Shown here in pieces: positions 26,712 through 59,047 of a stretch of DNA of 64,000 bases; position 1 is the stretch's first letter; the number at the start of each line of letters is the position of its first letter. A model generated the notes under the pieces. It had not been told where the DNA came from and did no database searches. It was given only the letters and a program-made list of their open reading frames with translations. The translations under genes were made by a program, and so were the position numbers. The DNA is taken from contig FN649736.1 in NCBI GenBank assembly GCA_000310025.1, positions 2,811,247 through 2,875,246 of the forward strand, written 5' to 3'. The stretch is from Ectocarpus siliculosus. Its lineage: Eukaryota; Sar; Phaeophyceae; Ectocarpales; Ectocarpaceae.

Positions 26712-29700
26712 TCAACGGGTGGCCCTGCTTCTCCTTCTCCTACCCGGGGGCGACGAGTTCCGTCCCCTGCGCGGTGGTGAACGAATGAAGTCGTCCCTGC
26801 CACCGGCCGTGCCGCTAGCACTAGAACGGGCAGTGTGTCGGGGACTCCGAGAGCGCGGGGGGGTCCTTTCGCGCACCTCGTGGCCGACGAACTCCAGGAA
26901 CTCGCGGTAGGATATGTTGTTGTCTTCCTCGGTATCCTATGAAGAGAGGGCACGGGCACGGGCACGTGGAAAGGACGGACATGACTGAGTTCATTTTTTG
27001 TCAGGGGTTCGAGGATCGATTGCAACATGGTGTGCCATTTTCTTCAGCTGGCCCAAGTTTGCGCTGAAAAAATGGTCTCGAATTTGCTATCGAAGGCCGA
27101 GCGATACTAAAGTGGGCGGCGCTTCACCACGCTTGGGTGGCCGCAAATCTCGCTAATATTCCGGTTAGATGACGGCGCGAGATTGCCTGTTTACCAATCG
27201 CACAACATACGCACCAAATACTCCAGCAAGGCTTCGCATTCGGCTTCGGTGAGATCAAGACCCAGCCCGTCCAACAGGCATCGCCTGAATGCCAGGGAGG
27301 GCAGCGTCCCCAGGCCTGAATGGTCGGCGGCTTCAAACACCTGGCGAAATGGTGGTGGGCCGTCTTCCTCCTCTGTCAACCGACCGATTTCCTGCCGTGA
27401 AAACGTAACGAGTGTATTTCAGGATTCGGAAGTAGCCCGGAAGCGCGCGACGTGCGACGTGAACGGGTGAGGCCATCAATATGAACCAAGAGTGCGCACC
27501 TGAGCCCATGCGCTTCACGTAGTCACTTTCGGGGCGGGTTGCATGCCTGGCTTGCATCTGCACCACACAAAACGTGTCGTTGTAGTGGTAAATCTACTTC
27601 TTTTTCGTTCTTGATACATACATGGTGTATACAGTAGTGCTTTAGTCTGGGCGGTGATGTGTAGCCCGACTCTTTGGCGCACATCTGCAACAACATATTT
27701 CACCAGCGACCTCTTGTGCGATGTATGAACCCACCTCCTTCAGCCTATCGACGAGGCGCTCGATGTTGCCTGCGCTGGAACGGCGGCGATGGCGTCTCTC
27801 AGATTTTCCTCCCTTTCGCCTGTCACCTGCGCTACCATTTCTGCCGCCACCTCCGCGGGGTGGAGGGTGTCCTTCCATTGCCTTGACAAAGTCTTTGTAG
27901 CAGACGTATCCGTACTTCCGGCCCTGTCCATACAAGTTCGGGGAAGACAATTAACTAACCCTGGATCCAGGCAGACACTGGCAAGCGAGATAGGCGAGAC
28001 CGCCAAATGTTTTCTATTTTAGAACAGCTTGAAACTTTGACAAATACTTCCTGCGTTGGTTGGCCATGCAGTTGGCAAGGACGGAATCATTTTTGATACT
28101 GCACCGTTAACTCTCGTTCACTCGCGCACAGCGTTGAGAATGAAGCATAGTTCACTTGCCGGCATGACTCATTCAACGCCAGTACCAACAATCCTAGAGT
28201 ATTAGTTTGGAGTGTAGTCCAGGCTCGAATGCCATGTGCCAGCAAGGAGTGAATGTTTGGTCGACCTTGGATGTGTCGACTCCACTATCCTTGTAGGGAC
28301 GACTCACAACCTCTTCCCTGGCACCAATTGAATGCCATGGCCATTTCACAAGGCGCACTTGCCTGGAAGGACTCCACGACGCGTGAGACGTCCGAACGGG
28401 ACAAGTCTTGTCCGAGCCCGAGACTCTGCAACCCTTCCCAAAAATCATCTTTGGAAACCTCTCCCTGCCGAAAAAGTACCGTCGAGAATCGGGTCAATAC
28501 CAGTCGCTGGCACCGCGACTGGGAGAGTATGGAGAACGACTGATGATTCTACACTCCTCCTCTTCAACTAGCCGGGGTGTCTTACAAAGCTGGCATCGTG
28601 GGGTCGGATATTGGATCAAGCACACCATGGAGGCGTCCGGATTTGAATAAGTGACGGCGCAGCATTCATTCGATCGGTTGGTGATGTTGCCCAGGGCCCA
28701 GGGCATGTTTGCGCAGGGCTTGAGGATTACTCATTATCTCGACCAGAACAGTTCATTGTGTTTCTGCCGGCGGGCATTCTAGAACAGCATTCCGCAACAC
28801 AAACCTTACCTGTCCACGACGATCAAAGTGCTCGAATGACTCCAGCAAGTCAACACCCCTCTCGCGCTCCGCGGCGCGGACAAGACCTCGAAGATCATCC
28901 AGGACTGCTGTCGCTGTTGACGCCGAATCTGTGCTCGAATCGTCGCTATCGGACTTTCCAGTCCAGGTATTTTGAAGCGGCAAAAACAATTTTGGATGCA
29001 CATATGTATCACGCAGAATGGTCGTAGGAAAGCGGGCGACGTGAGACATACGGTAGGCGGGGGAGTGCAAGGGGTAAAGGACTTCTTTATCCTGGGTGTC
29101 ATGCGGGATACTTGGATGATGGAGTCATGAGCACATCAGGCGTCGAGTAGGCGAACCTGTGTTACATAATAAGATGTCCTTTGGGCCAATTGGAGCGAAA
29201 CTGAAGAGAGGGGCATTCAGAGTTTGGGAACTCGAATGCATGCGCCCGTCACAATCCGCGGCAAACAATCCAGAATAAGTCAACCACGGCCTGGAGCAAT
29301 GCGATAAGAAGAACAACGACGGTTCCATTCAAATCATTGTGTTGGAAACAATTACCTCCTCCTCGGAGTTGCCTCTCGCGACCACCGCTCCACGGGTGAG
29401 TGCGCCCCGCACGTCCGACAGATGCACCCTTCCGCGACGGTCAAGGTCGAGGGAGTCGCAGAGAACAAGGATTTCCTCCTCCCTCAGCTTGGATGCACCA
29501 CCTTGCAGCTCGAGCGACCTACGCAATTCCCGGCGGCTGATCTCCTGAAAGCAAGTAGTAGTGAAATATAGTAGTGAAATGAAAGAACCGCAAAGCAACG
29601 GAGCTAGTGTGGGCGACCTATCGAGGGAAGCGCTTCATCTGAAGCGGGAATCGGCCAAGAACCCAGATTGCCTCCTACAGAAATCCGGAAAGGGGTGCAG

Positions 29701-32700
29701 AAAAGAGAAGGAGATCGGTGAGGTGGCTGAAGGTGTCGCGTGCTCCGAATGACACAGGTGGAGGTCGACCCCCCTTCCCCAAAGTGTCGGGTGCCCGCGC
29801 CCCCTTGTGGAGACCTTGACAAGGTCGAGCACCTTGGCGAAGACAACCAAGGCCAAAAAATTACCTCGATTTCTCCCTTTTCGAGGCCTTGGTTGTCTTA
29901 TCCAAGGTGTTCGACCTTGTCAAGGTCTCCACAAGGGGTCGAGGGCATCCGACATTTTGGGAAAGGGGGGTGGACGTCCACCTGTGGACCGACGTACAGT
30001 AAAAATTATTGCGGACCAGGATGTTCGGGGCAGTGTGACGTCGGATGTTAAAGGTTCTTGTTGTATCAGGCATGGTATGAACACTCGAAGGTGACATGTT
30101 CACGGAATTATTGCATGAAAAGGTTTGACACACTCGGGCCTCGCCCATGGACAGGAGAACATGGAGCGTTCCAAGGATGATTCGTCGTCAGCCTTGGAAC
30201 CACCTCGGGTGTGCGACGAGCGAACATGAACTCCATGATGGCCAGAGATCGCAAGATATCCTTACCCCTTAGCACACGTTCCTTTGACCTATGAATTAAC
30301 TCACGATATCCCTTGCGTGCAGCATGTTGCCTGTGCCCAATCCACAACTATATACAGACGTTTCGGACCAACTTCAAAGCGTCACCGCGGCAATTAGGCG
30401 AAACTACCCGAGGAGGTGCTCGCGTGGAGCTAGGCCAACATAACTCATTCTTCAAGACGAAAGAGCAATATCGCGGGTAGACGGCGGAACCTAACCCACC
30501 TCGCGGCCGTCAACGAATCGACCAAGGTCCGAGATGAACCCGTGAATGAATCCACCCCTCGCTGACGACGTTCCGCGCTGCGTGCGCGCCATTTCCGCGG
30601 CCACACGCTCCCAGACGTCATTTTCAACCTCTCGTGCCATGTACTCCACCATGTTCTGTACATGGTCCCAAGCACGTATCGGGAAGAAATGATATACGGC
30701 AAGAGGTGTCATTGTTTGCGTTCCCAATCCCTCTTTCAACCCCCCTGGGGTTAGACCACTCAGTAGGAGGTGGTCGTGAACGCATCAATCCTCACACCGC
30801 CAAAGACTGCCCGTCATCTTGAGTTATGCCACAAATCCTGTTCCGTCATGTAGCGGGAGGGTGGCAACAGTGACAAGCATATGGTACACTCATTTCCTAA
30901 TGAATCACTTGTGGGAAACGCAAGTGTCCGCGGTTTGTACTACTACGGCACGAACGTCAAGCCTACGTCCGGATGACCTCCTCATGACCACCCGACGATA
31001 TCAATGGTACTGCATCTTCCACAATGCATTATTGCATCTTTTCGCGTATTGTCTGTCCTTGTCTGTCCGTCTGTCTGTCTGTCTGTCTGTCTGTCTTCGT
31101 CCGCATCTCTCTCGCTCTCTCTCCTGCACCCCTTTCTCATTCATGACTACCTCCACGTCGATTTCGCCTGTCCCTCGCCGATCGAAGCGCCTCTCCAGAT
31201 CCCCCAGCAGGTTTGATTCCAATGGGGCGCCGCACGTCACCATCGCTCGACGGATTGTCTCCCGGTCGACGTGCCTGCTCCCTCTCCTTGCTCCCCGGGC
31301 ATCGGCTGCGATCTGTAGGGCCCGACGCAACTTGTCCCGAAGCCCGGGGCCGATCGCATTCCCTGCCCCGCCCCGCGACGCCACATCGTCGTCCCTCGAC
31401 GAAACCATGAGGCGTCGAAGGCTTGCACGTAGAAGGGCTATATTTTTCGAACGGGACTGGTGGCTGTCGTTACTTCCGTCACGGAAAGTCACTCCTTTGC
31501 GCCTGCTGTTGCAACCGCCGTAGCTGGCGTTAACGGCGGGTGATGAATATCTCGGTGATGTGTGGTACCTTCCCGCCCCTGTGACGGCGGTACTGTCGCC
31601 ATTGGAGGAGTGGCCACGCCCCCGGCGACCACCACGCCCCTTCGTCCGGCTGCTGCTATCCCTGCGGTCATCACCAGCAGGATCGTCGTTGTTCCCGGAC
31701 AGCAGGCAGAACGAAACGACCCTCTCGATGCTTGCGGTGCCGTCCTGCTCATATTGTTCCGCGTCCGTTCATGCGGTGGTCGGTGTGCAGGACCAGCGGC
31801 ACGCGTGATGTTGAAGGCGATAGCGCGTGTGTGTTAAGCTCTGTTTGGAACGCCAAAGGCTTACATCTGACCAAGCCAAATCAAGTGCCCGCAGAGGCTC
31901 CCCGAACATTGGGTATGACCACCCCAGCAACAAGTAAATGGTTATATCCAATGTCAATGCGACGATGACAAACTCACCATTCGTACTGAGTTGTTTCAGC
32001 CAAATCACTCCTGCCTAGCGGCAGAACACACAACGTTACTGGCTTCACCTCGTGAGCGTCGAAACGGTGCATTAGGCGACCCAAGTCGGCGCCGGCGAGG
32101 TCCACGCCGAAGGTTTCAAGAATGTTCCGTAGGGACTTTTCCGAAATCACCCCGGAACCAGAAGGATCCCTGCGCTCAAGCTCGCCTCGAATTCGAGACT
32201 CGGTCACCCTGTTCAACCTGTATGAGTCGACCCAGAAAGGGGCAGCGTCGGGCGGCGTGGTTTTCCCTCCCTTTTCTTCATGTGGTTTTAACTACTGCTC
32301 TCTGCATCGTTCCTGCATCGACCGGCACCCTTTCCAACCTTGAGCAATTGGGATTATGACAATTTTACGCGAGGGGTAGGTGTTTGACAATGCCTTCCGA
32401 TAGTCACGGAGCACCGTTGTCCCTGCTCATACGACGCGCATCAGCGGACTCTTTAAAGTATACAGCGAGGCTCAAACGTCGCGACGGTAGCAAGAAGTGC
32501 TAGCTCGCTGGACGCTTGTTAGCGACAATACATCCCAGTGTTTTGTACATCTATTGACGTCTCACGCGAATCTATCGGGTGGTTGTTGCCGCGGGTCACA
32601 GGCCCGCCGCAGAGCGCTGACAGAGTAAACAACTTACCGGCCAAGTACTTTGTCGCGTACGTCATGGTGGTTGGGGTCTCGAGCGAACACGACTAGATCC

Positions 32701-35700
32701 GGGTAGACCAAGAAGCCTTGGGTATCAAGATCTGCGACCGAATTGTGCACGAGACGTCCGCAGCATTGTAGCCTCAATTGTGTCTGAACGCACGAACAAC
32801 CGTAGTTGTATTCGTTTCGTCGCATAAGTAGCACAACTGGGCGAATTTGGGGCCCTCAAGCAACGTAGTCCTCGCGGGACCAAAGCCGAGCTCACACGCG
32901 TGCTCTCCCGAAAATCCAGTCCCAATGGAGCGAGCGCTGTACACAGTCACTGGGGATACCGCTTGGGTAGGGTGTTCGATGCTCTGGCGCGTCTTGTGAA
33001 CGATCAGCCTCCTACGATTTAGCAGCAAGGGGCGCCAACCTCGAAGTCGGTTTGGGCTTAAGGATCTGGCCATCGGTTCAGTGCTCTGAATCTACTGTCA
33101 TTTCCCGGACTCGTGTGCCCCTTGATAACCCCAGCAATTTCATTAGGATTGCTTCTCAATCTTGAAGGGGGGGCATTCGGGTATATTTGCTGCACTCGAC
33201 ACCAGGATCGCTGTACTCTCTTGAGACTGGATCCATACTCGACACGCCTCTCTCTTACCCATAGTTCTGAACAACCCTCGTTCTTGCCGTGTCGCCAGCT
33301 CCAATCCCAAGCGGCGTAAACCATCGGACAGGTCGGGCTCCGACACTTTGCCCTTACGGCGGGCGTCGAAGTGGCGGAACGCCTGCCGTATCGGAACAAA
33401 CACACGTCCCCCGAGGTTGAGAGGGGCGAAGCTTTGGGAGACACGTGCGAGTGTAGGAGTGGCCGAAAAATGTGAGGAATCGGCCGTCTAACACTACATA
33501 GTGTCCAGCCGGAAGCTGCCGTTAGAGTATCCCGACTGTTCCCCATGATCTGTACTCCCTCTGTCAGTCATTCACAACATGACATATCATTTAGTGAACT
33601 ACACAAAGTTCGGCTTCTCCCACATCACCAAGCAGTTCACTCTGCACAGTTATATCAAGTGGTTTGGTTCCGGAATGACGCTGATCTGCGATATATTACA
33701 GAATGTACATGATGGGTAGGACTGGTCATTTTCCGTTAAACCAGCGCTTTCGTCCACAACCCACCTTTTTGAGGGTCCCGGGAATCCAAATGTCAAAGCG
33801 CCGGCGGATCATCTGCCGGAGGCGTTCTTCCGCAGCCCATGTCTGCTATAGAGAAACAATACAGAAAGGAGGGAAACTCTCCTTGTCGTTGTTGCCCAAC
33901 GGAAAAATCACGTGGAGTGACTCGGAAATCACTCACACGGTACTTCATCTTCATCTTTCGATGTCGCACTCATTCGGCGCTCGTTGGTCGCAACGGTCTC
34001 CAGAATGAGTTCGAGCAGGTGAGAAACTATCACTTCAAGCATCCGCACTCGGCCGTTTGAGCGCGTATTCTTTGAAAAATCACAACGAGGCGGGGTCTCG
34101 GCCCCCGAAACTCCCTGGGCTCACCTCGTCGTCCCCGCCTCTCGAGTCGCCTCCCGGTGCCCCCCAGTGCAGCAGCTCCAAGTACCGCACGCCTGCCGCC
34201 GCGTTCCCCGCAACCCTCCCTTGCCTAGCGCTGAACGTGCCGACAAGGCCGCCGTCATTGGAAGAGGAGGACGAGGAGCTGACCGCAAATCGTTTCTCAA
34301 GGTCCGCCAGATCTCCTTCGGAAAGGTCGGCCTTGATTCTCTTCATGACGGCGCGAAAGCTGTCGGATGTGCCGGAGGAAAGGTGAGGAGGGGTGGGCAG
34401 ACGGATGCCAGAGCACGACGGATTCAGGCATGCCCCGGATCTAGTCTGATTGGTGCTACATGTAGTGCGCTTGCGAGGGCTGTCGGTGCTTACGCTCTTA
34501 ACGATTAGGCACCCAAGTACCTTTCGCCGCCACGTGGGACATGACTGGCACACGTTCATCTCCAGCTTCATAATCCAACAACCGGTGTGCGTGTTTCCAG
34601 AATATTATAGCAGCATCACGTGTTGCACGGCGTCTTACGATTCTCCTTACCTCTGCCGTGACACCACACCCTCCTTCATTCCCATTCCTCCCGCCGACGC
34701 TGACCGCCCTTCTTCCTCGAGCTCCATCTCGCGTCGGTAGTCAATCCCGCGGTCGATCGCCCGACTGAGGGAGGCCTGCAACCGTCCCCTTCCGCTCGTA
34801 CCACCACCGTCGAAGGCTTTCCTACCGCGAGGTGAAGGTGATCGGCGTACGTGGTCTCCCTCGCCCTCCTCGATCTCCCGAAGGAAGTCTTCGTACCGGA
34901 TGTTCCCGTCTCTGATGACAAGTCACGGGACACGGCGCGAAACATGTAAGCACGTTTTTTGTTACCATGTCACGCAGCAGTCTATATAGCGTCAATTCGC
35001 GTTATTGGCAAATCGGGCGTTGGAACTGTCAATTCGTCCGTTTTAGGAACGGGCGGGCAGTTAGGCGTGTCATAAGGTTAGCAAACGTTTGTGCATACGA
35101 TTGGATACATTTTCAGTGATAATCGGAATGACACGAACACCGTTTGATTTGAAAATGCCATTCCCACTTCTCTCTTAGTCCACCCCTACCTCTGGCGGTT
35201 TCTTTATCCTTTGTTCTGCTTTTTATCTATCTCTCTGTCTCTGTCTGTCTCTGTCTATCTCTGTCTGTCTCTGTCTCTCTCTGTCTCTCTCTCTCTTTCC
35301 CTTTTCCTCTCTCTCCTTACCCGTGAGGGTCGAAACGGTCCAAGATTTCGGCCGCTTCCTCGTCCCCCAGACGGTCGAACCCCAGCTCTCGCAGCGCGCG
35401 GCGGAAATCCCGGCGAGAGACGCGGCCGCTCCCGTCGCGGTCGAATGACTCAAAAGCTCTTAGCGTCCCCGGTTGTCCTTCGTCGCCGTCCCTACCGCGA
35501 TCGGCTGCTGCTGACGCCGTTGATGTGCGGCGCACGAGCCTTCTCAGCTCGGCCCGGATGCTCCGAAGAATGTCCCCCGGCCGGCCTGTGGCAGCGAAAT
35601 CGGCATGGTCTGTTTTTTCGGCATGAGACACAGGTATACGTCGCTTAAAAAAACTAGTATACCCCGCCAGGGTTGATCGGTGTCAAACGGAAGTAACAGT

Positions 35701-38700
35701 CGATTATTGGGGGCTGCTTCAAGCTTCGTAACGCTGCTTGGCGACGCAAACCACTTCATGCCGAGAGCCATGTGGAACAAAGTGGTTGAACAAATATCGG
35801 AACTTGTGGGTAGGAGTAAAGTTTCCCACATCTAATAATGGGTGTTTCCTAAAACCGCCCCATTGAAAAGGAGGTGACAACAGCACACACACCCTTGTGC
35901 CGCCCTCGGCCCCTCATGCTTCTTCCGTCACCCGCTCCCTCGATCGTCTCCTTACCTGAGCCCATGTTCCCCCCGTGTTCTCCGGTGGCGATGTTTTGCA
36001 GTAGGCGCGGGTACAAGAAGAACGACTTGGACTGAGGGTCGGTTCCCGTCGTGAATCTACGCATCAGACCCGCGACATCTGTGGCCGTAACGGGCAGGCC
36101 TAGGGTCGCCAGTACCTGAGAAAAAGAAGAAGCAGATCGAAGCTGAACGTTGGGAATCTTTCCGGGCGAAGGGCTATCGCAGTGCTCACGACGACAAACC
36201 TCAAGGTTTCTTGGTTCATATTTTCTTGTTTAGCCCTTGATTTCGCCCTGTATGCAGAAATTCTATGTACGTTTCTCTCTATCTCAATCGTCTTCCACGC
36301 CCACCTCTACGAGCTCCTCTTCTTGCACCCCCCCCCGCCTTCGCCCTGGGTCCATTCTCTCGAACTCTTCCCACGCCCTCGCGACGCCGTCCTCGCCCAT
36401 CCTCTGGAGGGCGGTGCGAACCTTCAGCTCCGCCTCTTCCTCTTCATCTTTTACCCCTCCCCTCCTGCTCGCACTCCTGCCTCCTTCCAAGGCGGAAAGT
36501 GCCGCTGCTCCTGGGTGTCGCTGGAGGCGGGACGCGGATTCTCCGGTGCCGCGAAGGTCTCCCCCTACTCCGGAGGCGGCGAGGCCGTCCGGCCCCGGCG
36601 TGGCCCAGGAGAGGAACGTCGGGTACGATACGTCGCTGCCGTCTCCGAAGACTCCCGCCAAGAACGCTGCCTGTTCATAGCGCAAATTAGTTCTGCTGAG
36701 CTAGAACGCTAGGTCGAACAACAAGTTCGTTGCATTGTAAGCGCCGGCCCATTCCGTCCAAGATGGACCTGTTGGTCTTTCTGCGAATACACCAAAGTTG
36801 TTGCTCGCACTTGCTTTGCGGAGGTGTTCGAGTTCCAATAAATCCTCGATAGAGCCAATCGTGAACGCTCCTTTCGACAATGTTGCCTACCGTGGGTGAA
36901 GAATTTCAGGAGGCATGGTTTTTTGTACACACCCGGGGTGCAAATTGTTCCGTATTTGCTCTGCAGTTGATTACACTAGACGCGAAGAAAATGATTCAGT
37001 GCGTTTCGGATCGACATGTGGGGCTATTGCACACACTTCGAGAGCTGGAACACTGCGACAAAGGCGACGCCTTCAACAGCAGCAAGGAGTGGAACCCACG
37101 CACAAGACATCAAGCGGTACCTGCGCACGGGTGAAAGGGAAGCCACACCGGACGGTGGACCGGACGAACTCCGCCGTCCCTACGCGTCCCGTCCGCCGCC
37201 AGTCGTAGCAGAGGTACGGCCGGTCGAACGCCTCGAAGTCGCTATCCATTCGCTGCCGAAAGGATGAGGCATACAACAGCGAAGGCCGGAAAGGCACGAC
37301 GTTTATTACGGGCTCTACGGAATAGAATGGTGAGAAACATATCAGGTCGGCTATTTCGTCGGCACCGGGTAGATCTGGGTGCGGGGTATGGAGGTATCGG
37401 GCAGAGAGGCCAGCATTGTTTCTGGGAAAACACAAAATCACCGAAGACAAATCACATCAACAGCAACAACCGCAGGTAGTGATCGAAGCATTCGGATGGG
37501 CACCTGCGCAGCCTCCACAATGGTTGCTTGCGCCCTCCGGAGCAGCTTTCCCACCCCTCTCTCTTCGTCTCGGGAAGCAACCGTCACCGCTCCGATTGCT
37601 GTATCAACAACACCGTTGTCGTAGTCCGCGGGCCCCTCGACGAATGCCACCAGATCGGTGCAAACTATCCCCGCGTTGCCCCCCGAGAGGTCTAGTCGGT
37701 TGTACAGAGCGCTCTTCTCGTCTTCGGTGCACCTGTGGGTTGGATTCGCAACCAAAACGACGAAAATTGTGGCGCCGGGAATGATTCACAGCTCGAGCAA
37801 CCGACTCACCGAAATTCAACATTTCACTCCGTACACCAGCGCGGACAAGGTCGGGAATGCTGCCGAGTTTCCCGTGGCCGGAAAATATGATGCAATAATT
37901 GCAATTTTTTCTCATGATTCACGACTTTACGGGGATGAACCTCGCAATCGATTCATCGGAATCGCCACGCACGTCAACGAAGACCTGGTCAACAGCGAAA
38001 ACTTCAGCTAAAGATAATACGCCAGAGAAATCTTCAGTCAACACCCAAGTTGTCAACAGCCGCGACACACATCTAATAGGCTTGGGGACACGCCAGCTAC
38101 GACACTATCACAGCAGTGCTTTTGTCCCACTATCGTCTGGACACGCACTTACTTGAAACCAAGCTCCCGGAGAGCATCTTCAAGTTGAGGTTGCCGTAGC
38201 ACACGACGACCACCACCTCCGCCATCATCAACGGCAAACGCTTCTAGAGTGGCCCGCAAATCCAAACCCTTTCCGTTCCTGACGGCGAGGAGGTGGCTGC
38301 GGAGGCGAGACACGACAGCCGCGGCTCTGCGGGCGGCGGGCTGTTCCTTGGCGAAGGCCACAAGAGAGGCGTAGTCTACCATGTCTTCGGCTTCCTCGAA
38401 CATGGTGGCGAGTTGTCGTAACTTTGTGTCCGGGCACGTAGTTTGTTTGGGGAGGGGGGAACGGGAAGATAGAGATGAAATTCGGCTCGTTTGGCGAGTG
38501 GGAGTGGGGAAGCAGAGGTCAAGCGGCTCGTTTGGGGAGGGGGGAAGGGGGAGGGAGAGAACAAGAGGGTAGCTCAGGGCTGTCGGTTTCACTTCGGCAC
38601 TGGCTGAGGTTGCTGAAAAGCAACTCGTTTGTGTCCGCACCTGCTTCGGAGGCGTTCCTGCAATGCCGAGCTCTCTCAAGCCATCGAACAGGTCCACCCT

Positions 38701-45900: not shown

Positions 45901-48900
45901 GGCTAGGTTCATCACAGGCTTCAACCGAAACGGAAATACAGGAGAGACAGTGCTTCGTTGGGGTCAGGTGTGGGGCGGGTAGCCGGGTGTTCTGGCCTGC
46001 AAGTTGCCACCAGGGCCCATAACAAGCGTTTCGCTGTGGCTCGAACATGGTAGGGAAGCCTCGTAAAAACAGAAACATCTCGAGGCGTGGACAATAACGA
46101 GGTTATTTGCGCCCCGTCGTCGTGCGCTTCCATGCTTACTGTGTTGTTGGGCGAAAATTACCGCTGTCCCACTTCTCCGTGCCGAATTTCTCCCTTGAGT
46201 TTTTTGTTTTCGTTTTCTTCCAGCTTATCGAGCGTCTGTCAGCGCGCTTGGTCGTGTTGCTTGCTGTTATTCAGTGCCCCATGTTGATTTGACAGTCAGT
46301 TACACATCGAGTTCCTCTCGGGGCTGGTGCTCCACGTTCTTCCCTATTTTGGTCGCTGCCACGTTTACCTTGGCCTCCAGCAGCCTGGCTTGTTCTACCC
46401 TCTCCTTCTCCTCCGGCCTTCGCTCCAGGAAGAGAGCGTACAGCTCCGTCACTGGCAGAGCCATCCGGATCTGTCAAAATGATACAGGATAGGTGTGCGC
46501 GGAGGGAGTTATAAGCTTGGGTCTGGCGTTCAACCGTTTGGCGGAAATAAAGTGGTACCGTGTGTCAAGTTTTGACGAGAGTCAACGAGCAGAGCCGCGA
46601 TCGTTGTCGGCAAAGATGGCAACAGGAGAGTTGTTCAGCATGCCGTGCGGTCGATGTCGCACAGGGCTCGTTTCTCGTGTTGAAGACAAGGCGGATGGGT
46701 CAGCTTGGTCCTTGATGTAGCGCAACGGCTGCCAGACGGTCTCTCTGTGTCGTATCGTGAGGCCATTGGTAGAGAATGATTCAGAAAAAGGGAGGCGAAT
46801 AGGGCGCGGAACTGTGAAGCTCGAGAAGTGCAGTGTACGTTTGAGTCTCTCATGGTGGATGAGAGCTGACAATCACTCGAACGGCGGGCAAACTCGGATA
46901 GATCAGCAAGCAAGCGACGGGAGGTGTTTACAGAGACCAAAGCAATGCTTTGACTAGGTGCCATTGTACCGTGATCAGCCACCCGCAGTTCGGACGTGTG
47001 TTGGTTGAGCTGTTCGTGGTCTTTGCTGGTACGGGTGAAAGTGTTTCAGGTAACCAGGTACCCGAAGAGGCATTCAACCCAACACATCCGGTTTCACAAT
47101 TTTGTACCTTCTTGGCATTGACAACGACATCCACGGCGCCAACGCCACACCAGTTGCCTCAATCGCTACTTCAACTACTCACGACAGCGTCGACAACAAA
47201 AAAAAACACCGCAAGTAGCGAAGACATAACCCCACGATCACCACCACCACCACCACCACCAACGCCCAACGCAGCAGCAAACCAGGTGCACAACTAACCT
47301 CGATGTGCACGTAGCCCACGACCGCCCCGTCCCGCGTGGAGATGAGCGGCTCCCTCTGCAGGATGATCCTCGGCTTCGACGACAGGAGGCCGGACAGCGC
47401 CACCTGCCTTCGTCCGACCAGCTCGAAATCCGCGGCCCTAGCCTGGTTGAGCTCGAGCACGAGGCCCTCGGTGCCAAGGAAGCGCAAGAAGAAGTCGTCC
47501 ACGGTGACCTGATTGCGTGAAACAAGAACGTCGCTTGTAAGTTCGCCGTACATCTATGTATCTGCGGTTTTCAAAGCATGGCGTCTACGTTTGGAAATGC
47601 GCCGTGTAGAATGTATGCGATTTGCGTCGCCCGACGACGCGCATTCCGCGATGGCTGCTGTAATTCCGAAGTATGAACACCAACAGCGGTTCGTGACTGC
47701 TTCAGTGCTGAACGAGAGTGGCTGTGGCACAAACGTTTCTCGCCCTTTCTTTGTTTGACCTACAAACTCCCGGAAAACAGATTTCCGCCATCTAACGGAG
47801 ATTGCAGGTGTTCTCGCTCCAATAGGTTTGCACGATAAAGGCTTCCTGGTGGCACTACAGGCCGTAACAGGCCATGCTCGAGAACTCCAGTGCCTGAAAC
47901 AGCTGGACTCAAAGCGTGATTTATGTGTTTTCTTTCTGGCCCTTCGTCCATGCAACAAACCTTGAATGTCGTCGCGAAGTCAAAGGCCGGCGACACCCCG
48001 GGCAGCAGAGGGGTCGCCTGGCTCTCGAAGTCAAAGAAGTCCACGACGATGAAGCTCGACGATCCGGCCGAAAGCACCCCGGGCTCCAGCTCGGCACCGA
48101 CCACCCAAACCTGATTTCCCAGTCATGCGATAACGAACAAAGTCACACTCACACCGAGTAAACCTCGAAAACGCCTACGACGAGTGGTGTGAGGTTCGCC
48201 CTCGGCCTGTTATTTCCTCACTCTCGCTGTTGGTATTTCGGTGGTGAGTAGTGCTACTGAGAACGAAAGTGGCATCGGCGCCTTCGCTCTCCCTTGTCAC
48301 ATGCCCGGCAACGTCACGAAGAGCCCAGCTCACCACACCAACCAACACATCAAGAGAGCTCCTGTACCTTACGGCAACGTATTCAGGACATACTTCAGCA
48401 CACATCACACAACAAAAACACAAGCTAAATACGGCCACGATACAGACTTTCTACAAATACACTGATTTTCTTTTGAACGCCAACATGCGACAAGCACAGA
48501 CCTCGACGATGTTTTGGTCGGCGGAGAAGTCACCCTCGGCCAACTCGCTGAGCAGCGCGCTCTCCTGCTCCTGCTCCATCTGGGCCGCCGAGGCGTCGCC
48601 GGCGGCTCCCAGACGCTTCCTCCTCGCCGGCCCGTACAGGAGTTGCTTCACCTGCGCGTCGGAATATAGCCAGGTATGATACCCTGAATCGTCAAATAGT
48701 TCATGCCGTCCAGACGGACATCGCGCCAAAGATGGGTCGTGTTGCTGCCGGCTCCAACAGTTCTTGTGTGACGTCGAGAAGAACAACCGCAAGAGCTTCT
48801 TCGATTGCACAGCAGGCGCGGGTTGGCATGCAAACGGGTAGCCCCCCTCCACTCCGAGATAAACGTCGTTGGTGATAAGGGAAGACGGACAGATACTCCT

Positions 48901-51900
48901 CACGGCGACCTGACGTGTAGTGCTCTGCTCAGGAGAACCATGATCATGACCCCAATTCTTTGGCGCCACTTTCAGCAGTCAAAGACTGTCTCGGCAACCC
49001 GAAACTACTTGGCGCAAAATGCAAGAATTTCATACCAAACCCAACGAAATGCTACAGGAAGCCTCAATATACAATTCCATACCATACCCTTCGAAAAGGC
49101 GACGGTTTTCACCTGGGCCTCCAGCCGGTTAATCACGGCCAGCCGCTCGAGGGCGAGGGCCTCGAAGTCCCGCAGCTTCTGGCCTAGCTCTCCCCGGTCC
49201 AGGGTAGACCTCCGACATGCCTCCTCGAGCTCTACGTGCAAGTCACGGTTGATGCTCATCTGTTGGGGGCTCGATGACCAGCGAGGTCGCGAGAGGGATG
49301 CACATTGGGTACGGGTCAGAGAGGCCAAACGGCACGCCAGTTGGGTACGAGCCCAATCGTGATCGTTACTCGTGCTGAGGATCGACGTGCCAGCCGTCAG
49401 AGAGGCGTCAAAGAGCACGAGGAGAGAAGGTCGGGTGAAGGGTGAGCTGCCGTGAGCACGTGGCAGTTGAACCGGATCTTGAAGGGGGAGTAATCTGTAC
49501 CTGGGATCAGTCATACATGTGTACAAGTGAGATAGATGCTGTGGATTCGCATGCGGAATAGTGTCGCATAGTGTGACTTGCCATGTGTGGGACGATCACG
49601 CCATCCAACCCCGTTCACCCGTTTGTGATGCCATTGTTTTGTGTAAGCTAACATGTTGCTTTTGTTGAAACATGCCGCGAAAATGTCGCGATCATCAGTA
49701 AGGGCTACAGGCTTGTTCAGTAAGTACTGATCACGTGAAAAGCACCCCTCTCTGCGCATCAAGCTCCAGATAAAAAAACGGAAGCATTCGCGGGCGCAGC
49801 TCGTTTATTCACACAGATGGGTTGCGCACCCAAAAAAATCTCGGGCAGAATGGTACGGTAGTCGCACTCATTCACAGCGCACGAAGTCTTACCTGGGCCT
49901 TGAGCATGCGCTCTGCGCGCTCAAGCTCTCTCGTGAGGTTGAGGTTGGACACCTGCACGCGTTGCAGCTTACGCCGAAGGGCGGGGACGTTGTCCATGTC
50001 TTCCTCCTGGAAGATGGAAGGCGGGAAAGTAGTGGCGAGAGAATTGACTTCTATATTGCTTGACGCGCGCACGCACGCATTTGCATTCGTCTACCCGAAA
50101 CATATTCTCGTCACCCGTTTTCCCCAGACTGCCGCAAAGAAATGGACGCAAGGTTTTGAACCGATGCAAGGTTTTGAACACCGAGATTCGTCCGTGCCGT
50201 GAAATTGCTGTCGCCGGCCGCCGATCCATCGTAATACGCTAGCGGCGTCCAGGCGAGGACAGCGGAATGCAGCGAGAATCGCGACGTGAATACCTTTGCG
50301 GTAATAATACCGACGGAATCTAGACCCTTCAGAGCACACCAATATAACTTTTCAAGATTGAAAACGAGTGAACAAAAGTTGCCACACGTATCTAGAATCG
50401 GAAAGGGCTACGCTCATACTCTGGGGATCATGTACGGGTTGGTTCGAGGCGGCGCTTAACAATCCAGCCAGCTAGCCATCAGGATATCTGAAGATGCTGC
50501 CCCACCTTCCGCTCTCGTCGAGCGACAAGAAGAGGCGACTAGAGCTGAGAAACGTGATCTACCCGGAAGCAAGGGTGGCGAACAGGTCTCAAGGGTGTTC
50601 CCGCTCATGCATTTCCGCGGATCGGGCCCCCCCTTCAACAACCACCAGCACAACAATTCAACGAACCAGCCTGGCAGGCACGCAGACTCGACGCTGACGA
50701 ACCAAAGGACAAGAAAGGGATCAACAAGCAAGGACATATAACCTCAGGGTTTTCGAGGAAGCCCGGGAAGGCCGCGGGATCCGCCATCTTCCTCCTGACG
50801 ATGGTCAGAGCACGCTCCAGCTCCTCCAGGTCTATGTCCTCGTCCCCGGCGTAGAGCCTCATCTTGTCGGCCATAAGCTGAAACAATGAAGAAAAATAAC
50901 AAGATATGAGAGACTTTCCGCAAAAATATCCTTCTTTTCTTTCCACCTAATGGCGTTGCCGGCACGGATTCCCCTCTTGGTGTTGGGAGGAAACCGTTGT
51001 GTTGCGCGAGTGGGGAAGGGTTTGGCGGTAGCCTGTTACCTTCAATGGAAGAAGTGAATAGGTGGAAAAATGAGTAGGGTGACAACATCTAGATGAAGGA
51101 ATGCAACGGGAGCATCGGGTTCGGGCCGCACCTGCGAAACAGAAACCATTACTTGGTGACTCTCAAAAATCGTCCTTGCACGCATGTGAGGGACACTTGC
51201 ACCCTTCACTTATGACGCGATTCCCCAAATGTTTACGGGGAAGAATCATTCCCTCTTCCCCGGCCTGTCTCTCCCCCCTCTATCTCCGTCTGTCTCGCCA
51301 TTAGCAGCAGCGTTCCGTTCTCCTAGTCTGCGATCGCTTCGAACCCATTCTCTCCACTTCACTCTCATCATCCCGCCCCGATCTTTGCATATCTCTCGCA
51401 CACACCTGGGCACCGGCCTCTGTCTCGTTGTGCCTGACCCGCATCTCCTGAAGGGCTCTTTCTGCCCTCTCCTTGTCCTCCCGCAGCCGCACCGTCTGCT
51501 TCTTAAGCGTGACCAGTGCCGCGTGGTGCGTCTGGGCCGTCTCCTGAAGTCGAAATAGTCAAGGACAACGCGGGAGGGGGAAAGCGAACAGAGGTTCCGA
51601 GCTTTACTCTTTGGTCTAGAGTTACTGGTCTACTGCCTCCTGATGCATCGACAACAATGAAGTATGACGTGGAAGGGGGGGAACGTACAGAGGCTGAAGG
51701 TTCGGAGCGCTACTTGTCACTAAGAGATACTGGTGAAACATTGAAGTAGTTGCACGGATGCAAGCACGTACCCGACAAAAATCGCTAAATAACTTCTGCA
51801 ACGCTTGTCACGTACCGATGATATCACCGGCTGCCCCTGCTTCGAAGATCACTTGCCGAAAACACGGCAGTTAGATGGTTTGAGGAAATAGCGGATATGG

Positions 51901-54900
51901 TTGTTATTTCGTCATTCCCTTGGGTTGCCGTCGCTCGCAGGCTCAATCGATCCTATCGTCTTGCCTCAATATGTGAAGAGCTCTTTTCCTGGGTCACCAT
52001 GAAACTTGAGTGATAAAGGTTATGTACTGAACAAATCGCAGGTTTAGCAAGAGTGCGACCAAATCCGTGAAAGTTGTTGTTGGGTGGGCGAGCATGCACT
52101 TCTAGCCACAGGGCGTGATATGGAGCGAATCTAACTTGTGAGGGATCCAACTAGGTTTATTTTGGCATCTTCACTCTACCTTGGTTTGTATTTCTCAGCC
52201 CCAAGAAGTGTCAGTGAATATGTTCAGGTATGGTATGATAGTAGTATGGGAGGGGGTACTATTCGTGTTTCTCTCTTGCAAAGTTTCATCTTCCATGTCT
52301 GCAGCCAACCTGCAGGTGATCGATCTTGAGCTGGGCCGCTCGGCTCCCCTGCTCCAGCTCCAGCACGCGCTCCGATCGCTCCTGGTCGCGGAAAGCCTGG
52401 GAGATGAAAGGGTTCTCGCATAGCCTCGTCACCTGCAACACAAGGGTGTCATTGAGCACAAAACCTTGGTTTAGCTGCATAGTGTACGTGCAGTGCCAAG
52501 CATTCTCCGCAAAAGAAGATATTATCTCCACACCGCAGTATCTAGGGCATGATAGCCTTATTCGTACCAGTTCCATGATAATCGAAGTTGGTATCGTTCA
52601 CAGCCTTGGTACACGTGCGTGCTGATTATAGCTTGGTCGGGGGGATGCATCTCCTAGAATACTGTACTGCATAGGTTACCACCGAGCCAGCTTGGTGCGA
52701 TCTCTATTCGCCTGAAGCTTGCGGTCATTTTTTCCCGGTGCACAACCAACAGCTGCGATATATCTAGATTTGGAGTGTTAATGTCTTAGGGTATGAAATC
52801 TATATAAAACTCGTCCATCGTGGGAAAGCGAAGCAGAACTTCTACTCCCTGCCAGATTCGTTGCTGTGGAGTGGTTTCATTTACCGGGACATATCAAGCA
52901 AGGTTTGGGCTCCTGGCTTTGCCAAAGTACCCATCGCCACCAACACTCTTTTGACGGCGTTCTCTGCACGGGAAAATGTCTAGCTTTACCGACGGGAAAC
53001 TGAACTTAGGTCCCCTCTGATTGTCGCTGTGTCCTTCAACACACGAACCAAGCACGCTGCTTGCACTTCTTCTGCTACCCACCGCCTTAAACGGTCATGC
53101 GGAGAACGTGTACGCTGGTCTGGTCACCTGATCCTCGAGCTCCTTGTTGTGCCGCCTTAGCTCGCTGACCGTTTCCTCCAGGTCGTCAACCCTACCGCAT
53201 TTAGCAACGGCTACGTCGCGCTCGTGTAGAGCATCTTGCAGCTCTCTCCGCACATCTCGGAGCTGGAGAAAGACCGAGGGAGAAGACGAGGGAAATGTGG
53301 GAGCGGTGAAGGTGGGGGGGGGGGGGGGGGGGGCCAAACAAAAAGGGGAAAAAGGCCTTTGAAAAGGGGGGGGGGGGGAGGGTGCTGGGGAAACCCCTTG
53401 CTATTGGGGGGTTTTGGCTCCCGGGCGTAAGGCGCGGGGGCCCCCTAAAAACCCGAAGGAACTCCACCCTTTTACCCCGGGAAGGCTCCCAAAAAGAAAA
53501 GGTAAGAANNNNNNNNNNNNNNNNNNNNNNNNNNNNNNNNNNNNNNNNNNNNNNNNNNNNNNNNNNNNNNNNNNNNNNNNNNNNNNNNNNNNNNNNNNNN
53601 NNNNNNNNGGGGGGGGGGGGGGGGGGGGTGCGAGCGATGAGGGGTAGAACGGCATTGGAGATGGGCGGGGGCGGGAGGTTGCTGGGTAACCTCGTTGCTA
53701 TGCGTGGTTCTGGTCTCCAGGCCGTAGGCCGCGGGGTCTCCTTAAAACCCGGACGGAGCTCGACCTGTTAGCCGCGGGAGGGCTCGCAGAGTGAAAGGGT
53801 AGGAGGAGTTCAATGTCCTGGAACAGGGGTTGTTTCAGGGACCTGATCGTCAATGCTATAGGATCTGCCTGTTTTCCTTAAACATTTCCTTCAAGTAGCG
53901 CACTCAGTTTAGACATCTGGACGTGTGCCCCTCAGCTTGTCGCCTCTGTCATCGTGAAGGTGCGGCTGCGCAAGCAAGCCATGCCATCAAAATAGTTCTG
54001 TAAACTGAACCGGGTGCACAAAGACTTGAAACGCGAAACGATTTGGAGCGTATGGGGTGACACTGCCCCCCTGTGCTTAGAATTTTCGGTCTTCAGAATT
54101 AGAGCTATACGGGACCGGCGAGAAATCATGCTTGACAGTGATGCACACGGAGTGTCGGAGCATTGGTGTCAAAATTGTCGAGATACTCGTGGAAGAGTAT
54201 GCGAAACGTGAAGTGCCTTCGTGCAGCTTCGTTTTCGAGCCACAACGAACGTACTTGTCTGTTGGTCTCTTGCAGCTTGTCGACACTGCCCTCGTGAAGG
54301 TCCGCCTGCGCTAGCGTCCGAGCCTCCAGGTGATCGAAGCGAGCCTGAATCAACTGCGCTTTGGCCTGCGAATAAACAACGCACAGCACCGTTCTCAGCT
54401 ATAGCGCGGAGTCCACGGAGTTGAGGCTGTTCGCGTGGAAGGGGAAAGAGGGATACGCAATAATACCACGTCCCCATAGTTCTTGCGCTGGTGGAGCTGG
54501 TGCAGCACTATTGTCGAGATGGCATAGTCGTCCCTGACACATGAATAGTCATAGCGGTGTGCGTGGGGCAAAGCCCCCATGACCATGTACCTGGCATGGC
54601 CATTGTTTCCTCACCAAGCCTTCGGTAGGCAATGCCATGGAAACAGTTGCTGCTTGCGAGATACTTGCCGTCGGCATCGATATTATCAAGGATAAGGGCC
54701 TATCCGTCAACTTTTGTCACTCCAAAGAACACGTTGACCGATACCTTCGTAACACTCTAATGAGGGCGGCGAGATCTGCGACGTTCCGTACGTAGTCAGG
54801 CCTGCGATGGATGGTCTTTCCTCCAGCAGGATTCAATCGCCGACTGGCACATCAAACAATAAGCACCACCACCTGTTGTCGACTCGCTCGTTTCCCCCCC

Positions 54901-57900
54901 TACGCGAACGAAAATTTGGATTGTGTTACCGCTAAGCGCGAAAAGGCCGCATCCTGAGGCTAATTTCCCGTGTTTCTTGAATACGATTGAAGAAACGTCT
55001 TGAAGTGGGAGCATTTCTGTGCGTTATCAGCTTGGCGCTACATCCACAAAGGGCAAGTGTGCAGCTGTTGGGATGTTGCCACGCGCATGATATAACGACG
55101 GTTACAGGGGTTAGGCGTTTACCTGCGCCTCCCGAAGCTCCCTGTGCAGGGTTTCCACTTCCTCCTGACTGCGTCCCCGTCCCCCCGGAGGTTCACGGTG
55201 CGCGGCGGCCGCGGCAGCCATGGCCTGCTCGTGGGCATCCTCGGGGGCGCATCCCGCGTCCAGCTGTTTCCGGTCACGCACAATCCAAAGGGCATAGTTT
55301 TCGTTTCCGCCAAACGTTGTGCGCGCGGGAGCGTGGGGCGGGAGCGCGGAGGCGGGTTGGCATTGTTTCGTTGCGACTGTGTTTCTGGGAAGCCTCAGTT
55401 CAGAATCAAGGCGCAAACATTGCTGTATTGCAGTCAAGGCAAAGATTGCTGGATGGTTAGTTTCGAGCTAGCGTGGGCCTACTCCATGACTACTCAACTT
55501 GAATCTTGCGTGTGTCAATTGGTTTAGACTTCCATTCAAGCTACCGTCATCGTTGTTATAGTCTGCTGCTTTTCTGTAGACGGCATGTGCGTTGACTTCT
55601 TTCTTCCCCGGTTCCGGTTCATTCGACGAGAGACCCTCCAGAAGGGTGGCGTGCTACGCCGAACGCTAAAGAATAGACAATTTTAGGCAGCCGACGCCGC
55701 GTTCTGCTTCCAACACTGTTCATGAAACGCATTCTGCTTCCAACACTTTTCAAGAACGGCCTCGGCTCCGAAGTCACTGGAACACTCAGGTGACTGTTGC
55801 CGACGCGCTGCGGGACAAGCAATGAGTGCCCCCCGGGCTCATGATTCTTTCGCTTTCCGCACACCTTGTCTTGCCGAAGCCGCTGGTTCTCGGCCTTAAC
55901 CCCCTTGAGCTGCTCCTCGGCGCTCGAGACCCGTTGCCGAAGCTTGTCCACCAGTTCGCTGAGCTGATCAGGGGAGGACAAACGCGACCAATCGATTGTC
56001 TCGAACCAGTACGAGTACAGTATTTGGAATTAAATCTACGAGGGCAAGACAGTGTTGGTCGCTGCCTGCTAACTTGACGGCTACGAGTCTTCTGACGTGC
56101 ACGCGAGCTTTGAGTGCCATGTCCGGAAAAAATGTGGTTGTTTCTTGCGCTAGCGCTAGCCTGAGCGAAATCAAACGGGGAACGAAGGCCAAACCTATCT
56201 CCTTTCGTGGTTTCATCTCTTTTCGTACCAGGGACACATACCGGACCGACACACTGTATTTGCGTTGAAGACGGCTCTCTACATAGAGCTTGGATGTGGA
56301 CCGCTGACGTCTGGGATAACGAAAAAATGGAACCACACCTAACCTTTCGATCATCCCTCCGTCTTGTCGCTCCCATGTCCATGTCGTCGGCGGAACGCTT
56401 TTTCGATAGCTGGAAAAAAGTTTGAGAATCGGAAAGGTTTCAAAACACGCCAAGACCCGCATGTCAAGTGAGGGCAGAAGTTGGGGTCATACGAGAGCAG
56501 GAGTCGGATATCGCCAGGAAATCATTTCGCTTCGGGCGCTTTGAGTGAAAGTCCCAAGTGTAGCCAGCAATAAACCAATATTGCACCATGAGACGCGGGA
56601 CATCTGTTGAAACGCAGAGCATGACTGCTGTAGGATGTGTGTAGTAAGAGAGATGCAGCTGTATTATTGCTGTATGCAATCATACGTCGATGCGTTGTAC
56701 TACGTAGGTAACGTTTGGTAGAACGTAACATATAGTGACGAATTAAAGCGAGGAGCTCGCGTATGAATTGATAGTTTATCGGAGGAGATCGTAATTGTAG
56801 CGCGATCACGAGGTGTTGCGAGCCCCACCAGGCTATTTCCCACCTATCCCTCAACATCTCAACTCTGCAAGCAAGCTGTAAAGTGAACAAGACGGAAAGG
56901 AAGTAAGAACTCCACAAGCGGCATCTAGCAACAATATCGACTTCGGTCACTACCTCAATAGACTTCTGTCTGAACAACACACAGACGTCTGTCTGAAACT
57001 GCACAAAGGTTTGACCGCCTCCAGACGACCCTTGGGTACAGGGCACCTCGACACTACATATTTCTACAACATCTTCCTCTTCTTCCGACACCGGTCACGT
57101 CTTTATGTCCTCTGGGTGTTGGCCACTTCCCTTAGGCTTTTAGTAGGCCGGTGGTCTCTTCATCTCTTCATCAACTATGAAATCTCGTGTATGCAATAGC
57201 ACAGGTGAAAATTCAGGCAAGCACAGAACACCGCTTCTGTGGGTGCCGTCAAACGTACACCGGCCCGGTGCTTTGCAAGCCCAAACTGCATTTCCGCGTG
57301 AATGCTGTTGGAACTTCCGGGACAAAAAACAAATACGACAGCAACGGGAAACAGCAACAGCAACCAGGACGACATCGACGACGGCGACAAGGACGACAAT
57401 CAGCTGTTCGAAATGCCAACCGCCAAAACATACCTGAACGTGTCGGCTTCGCATTCCGACGGACCGCGCCGCGGGACACGGGCTACGAGGGCCCGGCGGC
57501 CCGGCCCCCACCGCTCTCGTCCTCGCCAGCCTCGCGGCGACCAGTTCCTTCTTCTTTTTGGACAGGGCATCGTTGAGGGACTGTGCGTGCGCGCGGTAAG
57601 GTGGACAGCAGAAGAGCACTGCTTGAGGTCATGATATGCTTTCTCTGCTGCTGAATTGTGTGTTTGAGGCATTGGTACGATTGGCCCCAGCACCGCAGCC
57701 TATTCTGCGCAGCCTACTGGTTGTGCCGCAGATGTTTTCGCTTTGCGATGAGACCTTGGAATCGCAATAATTGAGGGCGGTCTCCACCACGGACCACGAC
57801 GTTTTTCTCTGCTTGTTTTGGGCAGCAGACAAGAGATCGAAGGCAGAGTCACGGGTGCCCTTCCCTAGTCATACTACATTTGGCGAAGGCGCACCAGCGA

Positions 57901-59047
57901 TAGCAAAATTACCCCGCCGTCCGGCACTCCTGGGTGGTAAGCGGGAGATACACTAAATAGGAGCGAGCACCATCGTGTTAGTAGGGTAACACGTTGTTGT
58001 CATCGGCGAGAGCAGGCTGCGTCACCTTGATCTTCGTCTTTAGGTCCCCGTTCTCCCGCAGAAGGACGCTGTTGTAGCGATGCAGCTCCTCCACGAGCTG
58101 CTCGTTCTCCCTGTTGCGAGGGTGACCGATGCCGCCAACGTCAGCGCCACCGCCCCCGCCGGCCGACGGCGCACCGCGTTGGTCGTTTCCGCCGTTGTTC
58201 TCCAACCGATACTTGAGCTTGAGGCTCTTTTCGATCTGGGAAAGCTTTGTATTCATCCTGGATTTTGAGAAAATATTCGCAACAGCAACACGTAGCAGTT
58301 CGTACAGGGTGGGCGAAAAGGGTGGCGGTGGTGACCGTGTTGGTGACTGATACAAGAGTCGGCCGTCAGTGAACGTACAGTGATCTTGGTTTTAATCTCA
58401 ATCTACGGGGGCTCCGGGGGCTGTGCAGTCGACGCATCGTGTCTTTGGGCCAAAGGGTTTAGGGTACCACAGACCAAGAGAGACGCTAATTAGACATTTT
58501 CGTGTTCCTTCAAGCTACAGTATGATCGACCGTCTTAACGGTGGTAGGTACAAGTCTAGGCATGAGAAATCGAGGGCACCAAAGCTTCGTTTTTCAGTGA
58601 TGGATCATCGAGTGTCATAAATACCGGTTGCGACCGGGGGGAAATCTAGAAATGTGGTATCTGTAGACACTGATGATGTTGCGACAAGCTCTGAGGTTCT
58701 CTACAACGTTGCTCATTCGACTATTGAAGTCGACTGCCTTCGGTGTAGACAACGGTATATACCATCCGGTGGGTACAGCATACCATGCCATTATATGTAC
58801 GTACTTGAATAATAACAAGCGTACCCGCTGGATTCATGTACCAGAACTGCAACATTCCTTGCGCACTCTTGTTTGTTATGCATGTCGCCATGTATCGTCA
58901 ATCGTACATGAAGAGATCACGGTACACCACAAGATACGGCTTGTCCCACCGTCGAATAGTATCATCTTGCTCGTTAGCCTTGTGCGTGAGAGACGTGTGG
59001 TCGTCCCGCAGCCGCAAGTACTTCTCCTCCCACGTCAAGCCTTCCAT
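26712..59047 (-). CDS. RPGRIP1L: giant RPGRIP1L-like protein fused to an EF-hand array (46 exons)
   Basis: Predicted scaffold of the ciliary (flagellar) transition zone at the basal body. Start ATG at 59047, TGA stop at 26712-26714, about 2,950 residues. Order: N-terminal coiled coils (exons 59047-48502), two C2 domains (48110-43440), then an IQ motif and about 25 EF-hand-like units (42968-26712). The first ~960 residues follow human RPGRIP1L closely in order and spacing. The C-terminal ~2,000 residues resemble EFCAB6-type EF-hand repeat proteins instead of the RPGR-interacting C-terminus of animals. Exon-by-exon phases agree through 45 introns. Most introns are GT-AG; two donors are GC (at 28362 and 43439). 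Introns are mostly 200-1,100 bases. The second N gap lies in an intron. An upstream non-coding or coding exon is possible, because human RPGRIP1L has ~60 residues before the match begins. The main alternative is two separate genes; I favour one because the frame is continuous and an EF loop spans the boundary. Confidence 0.78.
29753..29986. mobile_element. 234-bp near-perfect hairpin element in an intron
   Basis: CACAGGTGGAGGTCGACCCC at 29753 pairs with the sequence ending CACCTGTG at 29986. The arms are about 100 bases with few mismatches (shared CCTTGTGGAGACCTTGACAA, GACAACCAAGGCC) and a loop of about 25 bases. It lies between exons 29356-29544 and 30500-30655 of the large gene. No clear target duplication is seen. 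Confidence 0.75.
31051..31096. repeat. (GTCT)n microsatellite
   Basis: About ten GTCT units with one interruption, just downstream of the donor of exon 31151-31744, in the intron. Confidence 0.9.
35226..35298. repeat. (TCTG/TCTC)n microsatellite
   Basis: Irregular TCTGTCTC units over about 70 bases in the intron directly after exon 35321-35585. Confidence 0.85.
43440..48110 (-). CDS. RPGRIP1L: RPGRIP1L part 2: two C2 domains
   Basis: Seven exons: 47961-48110, 47299-47508, 46369-46470, 45569-45781, 44906-45024, 44075-44180 and 43440-43670. The first C2 contains VVDFFDFESQATPLLPG and VTVDDFFLRFL, the diagnostic RPGRIP1-family pattern (FYDFE-Q-TP; VxVDDLFLxYL), and ends with RMALPVTELYALF (human RLRVPMEQAIRLY). 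The second C2 begins NELEVVIIGCRDL, with DPSFRHSTSFPVATDDKLLRFL and GEALVDLSPMAEG matching the human second C2. Exon 46369-46470 could instead run on to 46306, which also keeps phase. The last exon has a GC donor (CAG then gcgcgt) and already contains the first half of an EF-hand (SSEEVEGLMARFSPEKDGQ). Confidence 0.88.
48502..59047 (-). CDS. RPGRIP1L: RPGRIP1L part 1: N-terminal coiled-coil exons
   Basis: Thirteen exons: 58950-59047, 58026-58257, 57434-57580, 55865-55963, 55123-55263, 54255-54365, 53128-53262, 52310-52432, 51406-51543, 50743-50877, 49893-50006, 49113-49259 and 48502-48651. The start MEGLTWEEKYLRLRDDH aligns with the human EDRFLRLHDEN region. The exon 1/2 join yields IRRMNTKLSQIEK, matching IKRMATKLIRLV. 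Later landmarks include RLYAGDEDIDLEELERAL (human KLYNQENDINADELSEAL) and the LEAQ-VKQLLYG junction (human LEAQLKDIAYG). Residues are heptad-like, rich in Glu, Arg, Leu and Gln, with a poly-Gly interruption in exon 2. These coiled coils hold the protein in the transition-zone scaffold with nephrocystin partners (family knowledge). Confidence 0.88.
53509..53608. other. assembly gap (100 N) with artefact-like flanks
   Basis: Exactly 100 N between G homopolymers. The left flank (about 53360-53508) reads like a low-quality copy of the right flank (about 53672-53812). It lies in an intron of the large gene. Confidence 0.97.

Follow-up and report, generated by a model that had tools for sequence, protein, structure and literature searches.

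The 64,000-nucleotide stretch of Ectocarpus siliculosus analysed here (contig FN649736.1, positions 2,811,247 to 2,875,246; hereafter the window) carries on its minus strand, from 59047 to 26712, what the sequence supports as one gene, encoding an RPGRIP1L with an in-frame tail of EF-hand-like units. RPGRIP1L is an organiser of the ciliary gate, and mutations in it are found in human ciliopathies. That the two parts form a single fused gene is practically certain. For the function of the tail, we assign a rough probability of 0.6 to the reading in which this is a 46-exon RPGRIP1L whose EF-hand tail would act chiefly as a structural strap rather than as a calcium switch.

Gene model and domain identity

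The final gene model, edited by hand under the guidance of homologs, has 46 exons (8,937 nt) with one stop and encodes 2,978 residues. The homologs, referred to by P numbers, are 38 different proteins returned by three word-based protein searches of low sensitivity, and the total of relatives is thus at least 38. Against P0003 (2,952 aa), the model aligns from residue 1 to 2971 with 69% identity, and 40 of the 45 exon joins are continuous in the alignment, the gaps falling after exons 6, 7, 26, 29 and 31; exon 7 is absent from P0003. A gene finder trained on codon and splice patterns of the window, with eye-selected peptides of its open frames as seeds, was run before the homologs were used and returned one gene (59047 to 26740, 47 exons), unsplit even with splitting allowed, in which a GT donor at 43485 was paired with 42968. 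The edited 46-exon model itself depends on the homologs, and a gene-finder run with a homology bonus was used for exon hints only. The start, end and exon number of the first-pass annotation of this DNA (59047, 26712 and 46), together with its junction 43440/42968, were reproduced by the homolog-guided editing, and the use of a GC-AG intron at that junction (CAG/GCGCGT) can now be added.

Among the 45 introns, 42 have GT donors and three have GC donors, and 35 are in phase 0. The three GC-AG introns begin at 43439, 40109 and 28362. Introns 2-18 (45025-58025), in the part encoding the coiled coil and C2 domains, are 17 consecutive phase 0 introns, and introns 19-37 are of mixed phases. A 100-base gap of N (53509-53608) lies within intron 7.

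The features of the gene are as follows.

26712..59047, minus strand: whole coding region, 46 exons, for the predicted 2,978-residue RPGRIP1L with EF-hand tail (gene models; end-to-end P0003 alignment)
48502..59047, minus strand: exons 1-14, N-terminal coiled-coil region, residues 1 to ~600 (gene model; long predicted helices in the part covered by P0025)
46453..48531, minus strand: first C2, the RPGRIP1-specific C2-C2_1, residues ~603-738 (PF11618, 151.9 bits; human fantom C2, 2yrb)
43542..45673, minus strand: second C2, residues ~803-955
43440..43670, minus strand: exon 21, in which the final strands of the second C2 precede the opening half of the first EF unit (33 of 38 homologs match across the junction)
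42969..43439, minus strand: intron 21, GC-AG, CAG/GCGCGT ... CCAG/GTG (P0002 and P0003 read across without an insert)
26883..43490, minus strand: EF-hand array, 20 EF-like units, residues 973-2922 (EF profile; Pfam EF-hand_7, 146 bits)
40946..40978, minus strand: IQ-like motif VQSRFRGYRTR, residues 1360-1370 (Pfam scan; homolog pattern match)
38840..40109, minus strand: intron 25, GC-AG (DYRAFTIFCEE read across in P0002 and P0003)
35407..35442, minus strand: sole canonical-pattern EF loop DRDGSGRVSRRD, residues 2027-2038 (canonical pattern match)
27924..28362, minus strand: intron 43, GC-AG, CAG/GCAAGT

The likeness of the N-terminal third to RPGRIP1L, with coiled coils and two C2 domains, had been noticed in the first-pass annotation and is borne out by profile and structure comparisons. 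In the Pfam scan, for which the domain scores come from an earlier 2,736-residue model, PF11618 (C2-C2_1) was matched with 151.9 bits against a cut-off of 29.2, over profile positions 3-143 of 143, and EF-hand_7 with 146 bits, the two families for which a profile search of the spliced protein had been suggested. The second C2 scored 16.8 bits in the scan, below the cut-off, and no family for the RPGR-interacting domain was found in this model at E <=1. The human fantom C2 (2yrb) was matched with the family profile, built from 28 of the 38 homologs, at 2.5e-23. AlphaFold2 modelling of the Ectocarpus homolog P0025 (987 residues, 28 aligned sequences) gave a mean pLDDT of 67.2 and two predicted C2 folds, with pLDDT mostly >80 in the C2 stretches, both of which were grouped with C2 domains in a structure comparison; the model reaches only the first part of the array. 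The coiled coils before the C2 domains were recognised by eye and from long helices predicted shortly ahead of the first C2, at P0025 residues 46-119 and 134-151 (no coiled-coil program was used). A search of the 189 Mb genome found two PF11618 matches, both at the RPGRIP1L gene, and all four matches of a 168-residue segment of the array fall at this gene as well. The NCBIfam names XopAW, a deiodinase relative and SMC were rejected as candidates, their scores being far below the cut-offs.

The in-frame run from the second C2 into EF-hand-like units, also claimed in the first-pass annotation, is most directly seen in exon 21 (43670-43440). There the second C2 closes with its last strands, GKICVSARWVKPLR, and is followed by GLSSEEVEGLMARFSPEKDGQ, the opening part of an EF unit that VNYVAFL in the next exon finishes. 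The junction is spanned in 33 of the 38 homologs (BLAST with residues 931-1030, E 4.6e-5 or better, as single-sequence comparisons). These include single predictions of 2,000-3,100 aa and P0014, an MMETSP transcript protein marked complete, which runs from the coiled coil through both C2 domains into the array; the model of P0013, another of the 33, lacks the first EF half. No insert is seen at the junction in P0002 (Scytosiphon) or P0003. The five homologs that give no match across it are P0022 and four short fragments, P0028-P0031. P0022 retains a short junction-like stretch, NAITATQANAVFKRFSRELSG (E 0.094).

Alternatively, prediction could have joined an RPGRIP1L that stops behind its second C2 to a neighbouring, independent EF-hand gene. 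It is true that the NCBI Ectocarpus models fall short of the whole gene, with P0025 breaking off past the IQ region, where it seems to read into the next intron, and P0001 being partial, and that a GC donor is required at the junction. However, both of these models also cross the junction, and because exon 21 holds parts of both domains, 33 of 38 homologs cross and P0014 is transcript-derived, the presence of two neighbouring genes is virtually excluded.

The EF-hand array and its distribution

All 20 EF-like units lie after residue 972, in residues 973-2922, one of them ending in RDPNH (residues 2317-2321), and 0 or 1 unit was found in each of 20 shuffles; the EF-hand profile was trained on these same proteins and hence favours them. 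The roughly 2,000-residue EF-hand-like stretch of the first-pass annotation thus stands, but the IQ motif reported with it is less firm, with PF00612 scoring 15.1 bits against a cut-off of 20.3 and an IQ-like match present in 16 of the 38 homologs. Only one canonical calcium-binding loop, at residue 2027, was found among the 20 units, using the PROSITE PS00018 pattern, and canonical loops in most units, as expected of a calmodulin-type protein, are therefore not seen. Twelve of the 30 long homologs have no canonical loop, at least two of these 12 being truncated.

These counts bear on the proposal, made in the first-pass annotation, that the tail is a calcium/calmodulin sensor through which the transition zone would respond to flagellar Ca2+. 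The EF-hand fold family, the IQ-like motif in 16 homologs, and the presence of one canonical loop in the window protein and up to 13 in Triparma speak for such a sensor. Against this, the canonical loop is absent from 19 of the 20 window units, its IQ motif scores below the Pfam cut-off, and an EF-less Paramecium protein still supports Ca2+-triggered deciliation. We consider the sensor unlikely.

The homologs with organism labels come from Ectocarpus, Scytosiphon, Phaeothamnion, Tribonema, Triparma (three species), Aureococcus and Chrysophaeum, all of them ochrophytes. No ciliate, oomycete or animal relatives were among the labelled homologs returned, an absence that says little given the insensitive word-based searches. 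The same C2/EF order, for which a wider search had been suggested, was found in brown, yellow-green, Triparma and pelagophyte proteins. Precomputed Pfam labels assign PF11618 together with EF-hands to 26 of the 38 homologs. Of the others, P0021 shows C2 and EF-hands without PF11618, the junction is still crossed in P0001 and P0023-P0027, whose models are shorter or partial, and P0028-P0031 are pieces of 225-274 residues. The C2-to-EF stretch of the window agrees with that of Ectocarpus sp. P0001 in 99% of 386 columns.

A quick tree of the C2-to-EF stretch (36 rows) contains four supported groups, each with array-bearing members. The first is composed of brown and yellow-green algae with Phaeothamnion, the second of Triparma, and the third includes the pelagophytes Aureococcus and Chrysophaeum; P0012, P0022 and P0038 stand alone. 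The root of the tree is untrustworthy, the human row covering 27% of the columns on a long branch. Eleven EF-hand proteins (P0016, P0018-P0021 and P0032-P0037) make up the fourth group.

The tail could also be a loosely constrained accretion, an array grown by duplication that has little role at the transition zone. This would fit the drop in identity to P0003, which is 0.96 for the first C2 and 0.62-0.73 for stretches after residue 1040, the variation from 7 to 33 units among 27 homologs, and the finding that the EF part was dispensable in two Paramecium assays. Against it, array-bearing members are present in all four supported tree groups, tail exons 35, 36, 42 and 45 remain at 0.85-0.95 identity to P0003, and an open frame is maintained over ~2,000 tail codons; accretion is in our judgement improbable.

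Role of the tail

The preference for a structural tail derives from the resemblance of the array to the microtubule inner proteins EFCAB6 and CFAP115 and from the presence of only one canonical loop. Among the best 60 of 230 PDB matches, the family profile placed EFCAB6 (5.3e-85) and Tetrahymena CFAP115 (1.6e-55) at the top, with the axonemal proteins CCDC81B (6.7e-34), RIB57 (4.7e-31) and radial spoke protein 7 (3.7e-24) lower down. In the papers, which here and below are cited from excerpts, EFCAB6 is placed among the microtubule inner proteins, at the inner junction of the doublets in mammals (PMC8595878), and CFAP115 belongs to the same class in Tetrahymena (PMC10105768). No separate EFCAB6 gene was found in the Ectocarpus genome by a search that is uninformative for such an absence, and a made-up EF-hand consensus gave three weak genome matches, on contigs C16 and C51.

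For the N-terminal part, the coiled-coil portion of MKS-5 alone suffices for placement at the transition zone in C. elegans (PMC4794247), and Paramecium RPGRIP1L lies nearer to the microtubules than NPHP4 (PMC8535419). On these grounds, the coiled-coil first third would most likely place the algal RPGRIP1L at the transition zone. The tail is predicted to serve mainly as a structural strap along the transition-zone doublet microtubules. It would most likely bind tubulin or a partner associated with the doublets, for the most part independently of calcium, with at most local calcium/calmodulin regulation via the canonical loop and the IQ motif. In the same genome, B9-domain matches occur on four contigs and meckelin matches on contig C9, which indicates that MKS-module genes are present. 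A PF16574 search for CEP290 found nothing in this genome, with a profile that detected no control either.

Several observations weigh against a structural strap or the gene structure on which it is built. The Ectocarpus models P0001 and P0025 splice from a different donor near 43440 and carry four or five additional residues at the junction. P0022 (1,996 residues) is the sole long homolog with PF11618 and no EF-like unit, in a lineage that has perhaps lost the array. P0011 (Triparma strigata) has 13 canonical loops, and with such numbers in Triparma relatives, calcium binding may be ancestral. The family profile also matches a calmodulin-calcineurin fusion (2.8e-23) and calmodulin chains (near 5e-18), and the top ranks of EFCAB6 and CFAP115 may in part reflect length; because long arrays gain score by length, these matches are a likeness and not proof of descent. 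Moreover, EFCAB6 and CFAP115 sit inside the doublets, where RPGRIP1L is not known. Finally, the EF part of the Paramecium protein was dispensable for localisation and deciliation (PMC7093003).

A more far-reaching possibility is that the giant-array RPGRIP1L is ancient in stramenopiles and alveolates and that the array acts as a molecular ruler along the transition-zone doublets. Chlamydomonas FAP115 (26 kD) has a repeat of 8 nm, and the four-domain TtCFAP115 (110 kD) is expected every 32 nm (PMC10105768). If the EF-hand pairs were to lie on tubulin as in FAP115, ~1,950 residues would span about 65 nm. A ruler of this kind would determine how long the transition zone is or how it is spaced, and the number of units (7 to 33 in relatives) would track the zone length. 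We regard this as a long shot.

Elsewhere in the window, an open frame on the plus strand (62145-62618) contains the NAD-binding part of semialdehyde dehydrogenase (PF01118, 2.5e-11) and resembles N-acetyl-gamma-glutamyl-phosphate reductase, ArgC. A stop-free frame of 635 codons on the minus strand (14501-16408) has no Pfam match at E <=0.01, and a tandem repeat with a 123-base unit in 2.5 copies (2937-3256) lies inside two overlapping plus-strand open frames.

Comparison with known systems

An RPGRIP1L with EF-hands in place of the RPGR-interacting domain has been reported from Paramecium (PMC7093003, PLoS Biol. 2020), and the architecture is therefore already on record in a ciliate. That report termed the EF-hands Paramecium-specific, which, as far as the domain layout is concerned, is contradicted by the predicted algal proteins. 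The Paramecium and window proteins are alike in layout, each having an EF-hand tail on RPGRIP1L, and an IQ motif is unmentioned for Paramecium in the excerpted text (PMC7093003). In the open-access literature, no paper linking RPGRIP1L with Ectocarpus or stramenopiles was found, most subscription papers being outside the scope of the search. What is newly added is the layout with its conserved junction in several ochrophyte groups, together with the array size, an IQ-like motif and the finding that canonical loops are rare.

Other known forms differ more in their C-terminal parts. Animal RPGRIP1L/RPGRIP1 (fantom, NPHP8, MKS5) share with the window protein the PF11618 C2, the coiled coils and the second C2, but end in the RPGR-interacting domain where the window protein has the array. 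Chlamydomonas RPG1 is likewise an RPGRIP1L of an algal flagellar gate, whereas its last third contains ~450 residues predicted to be disordered (PMC6215392); neither 'EF hand' nor 'calcium' appears as a term in the excerpted text of that paper. A 2014 survey described a single RPGRIP1L-like sequence in non-metazoans (PMC4092220), in agreement with the PF11618 search of the genome. EFCAB6 and CFAP115 resemble the window protein in their long tandem arrays of EF-hand pairs, and differ in that the profile meets them in the EF part only. An EF-hand tail thus occurs in at least two distant lineages at the position where vertebrates carry the RPGR-interacting domain, which makes it possible to ask in concrete terms whether the tail serves to measure the transition zone or to brace it, and how it is that animals manage without one.

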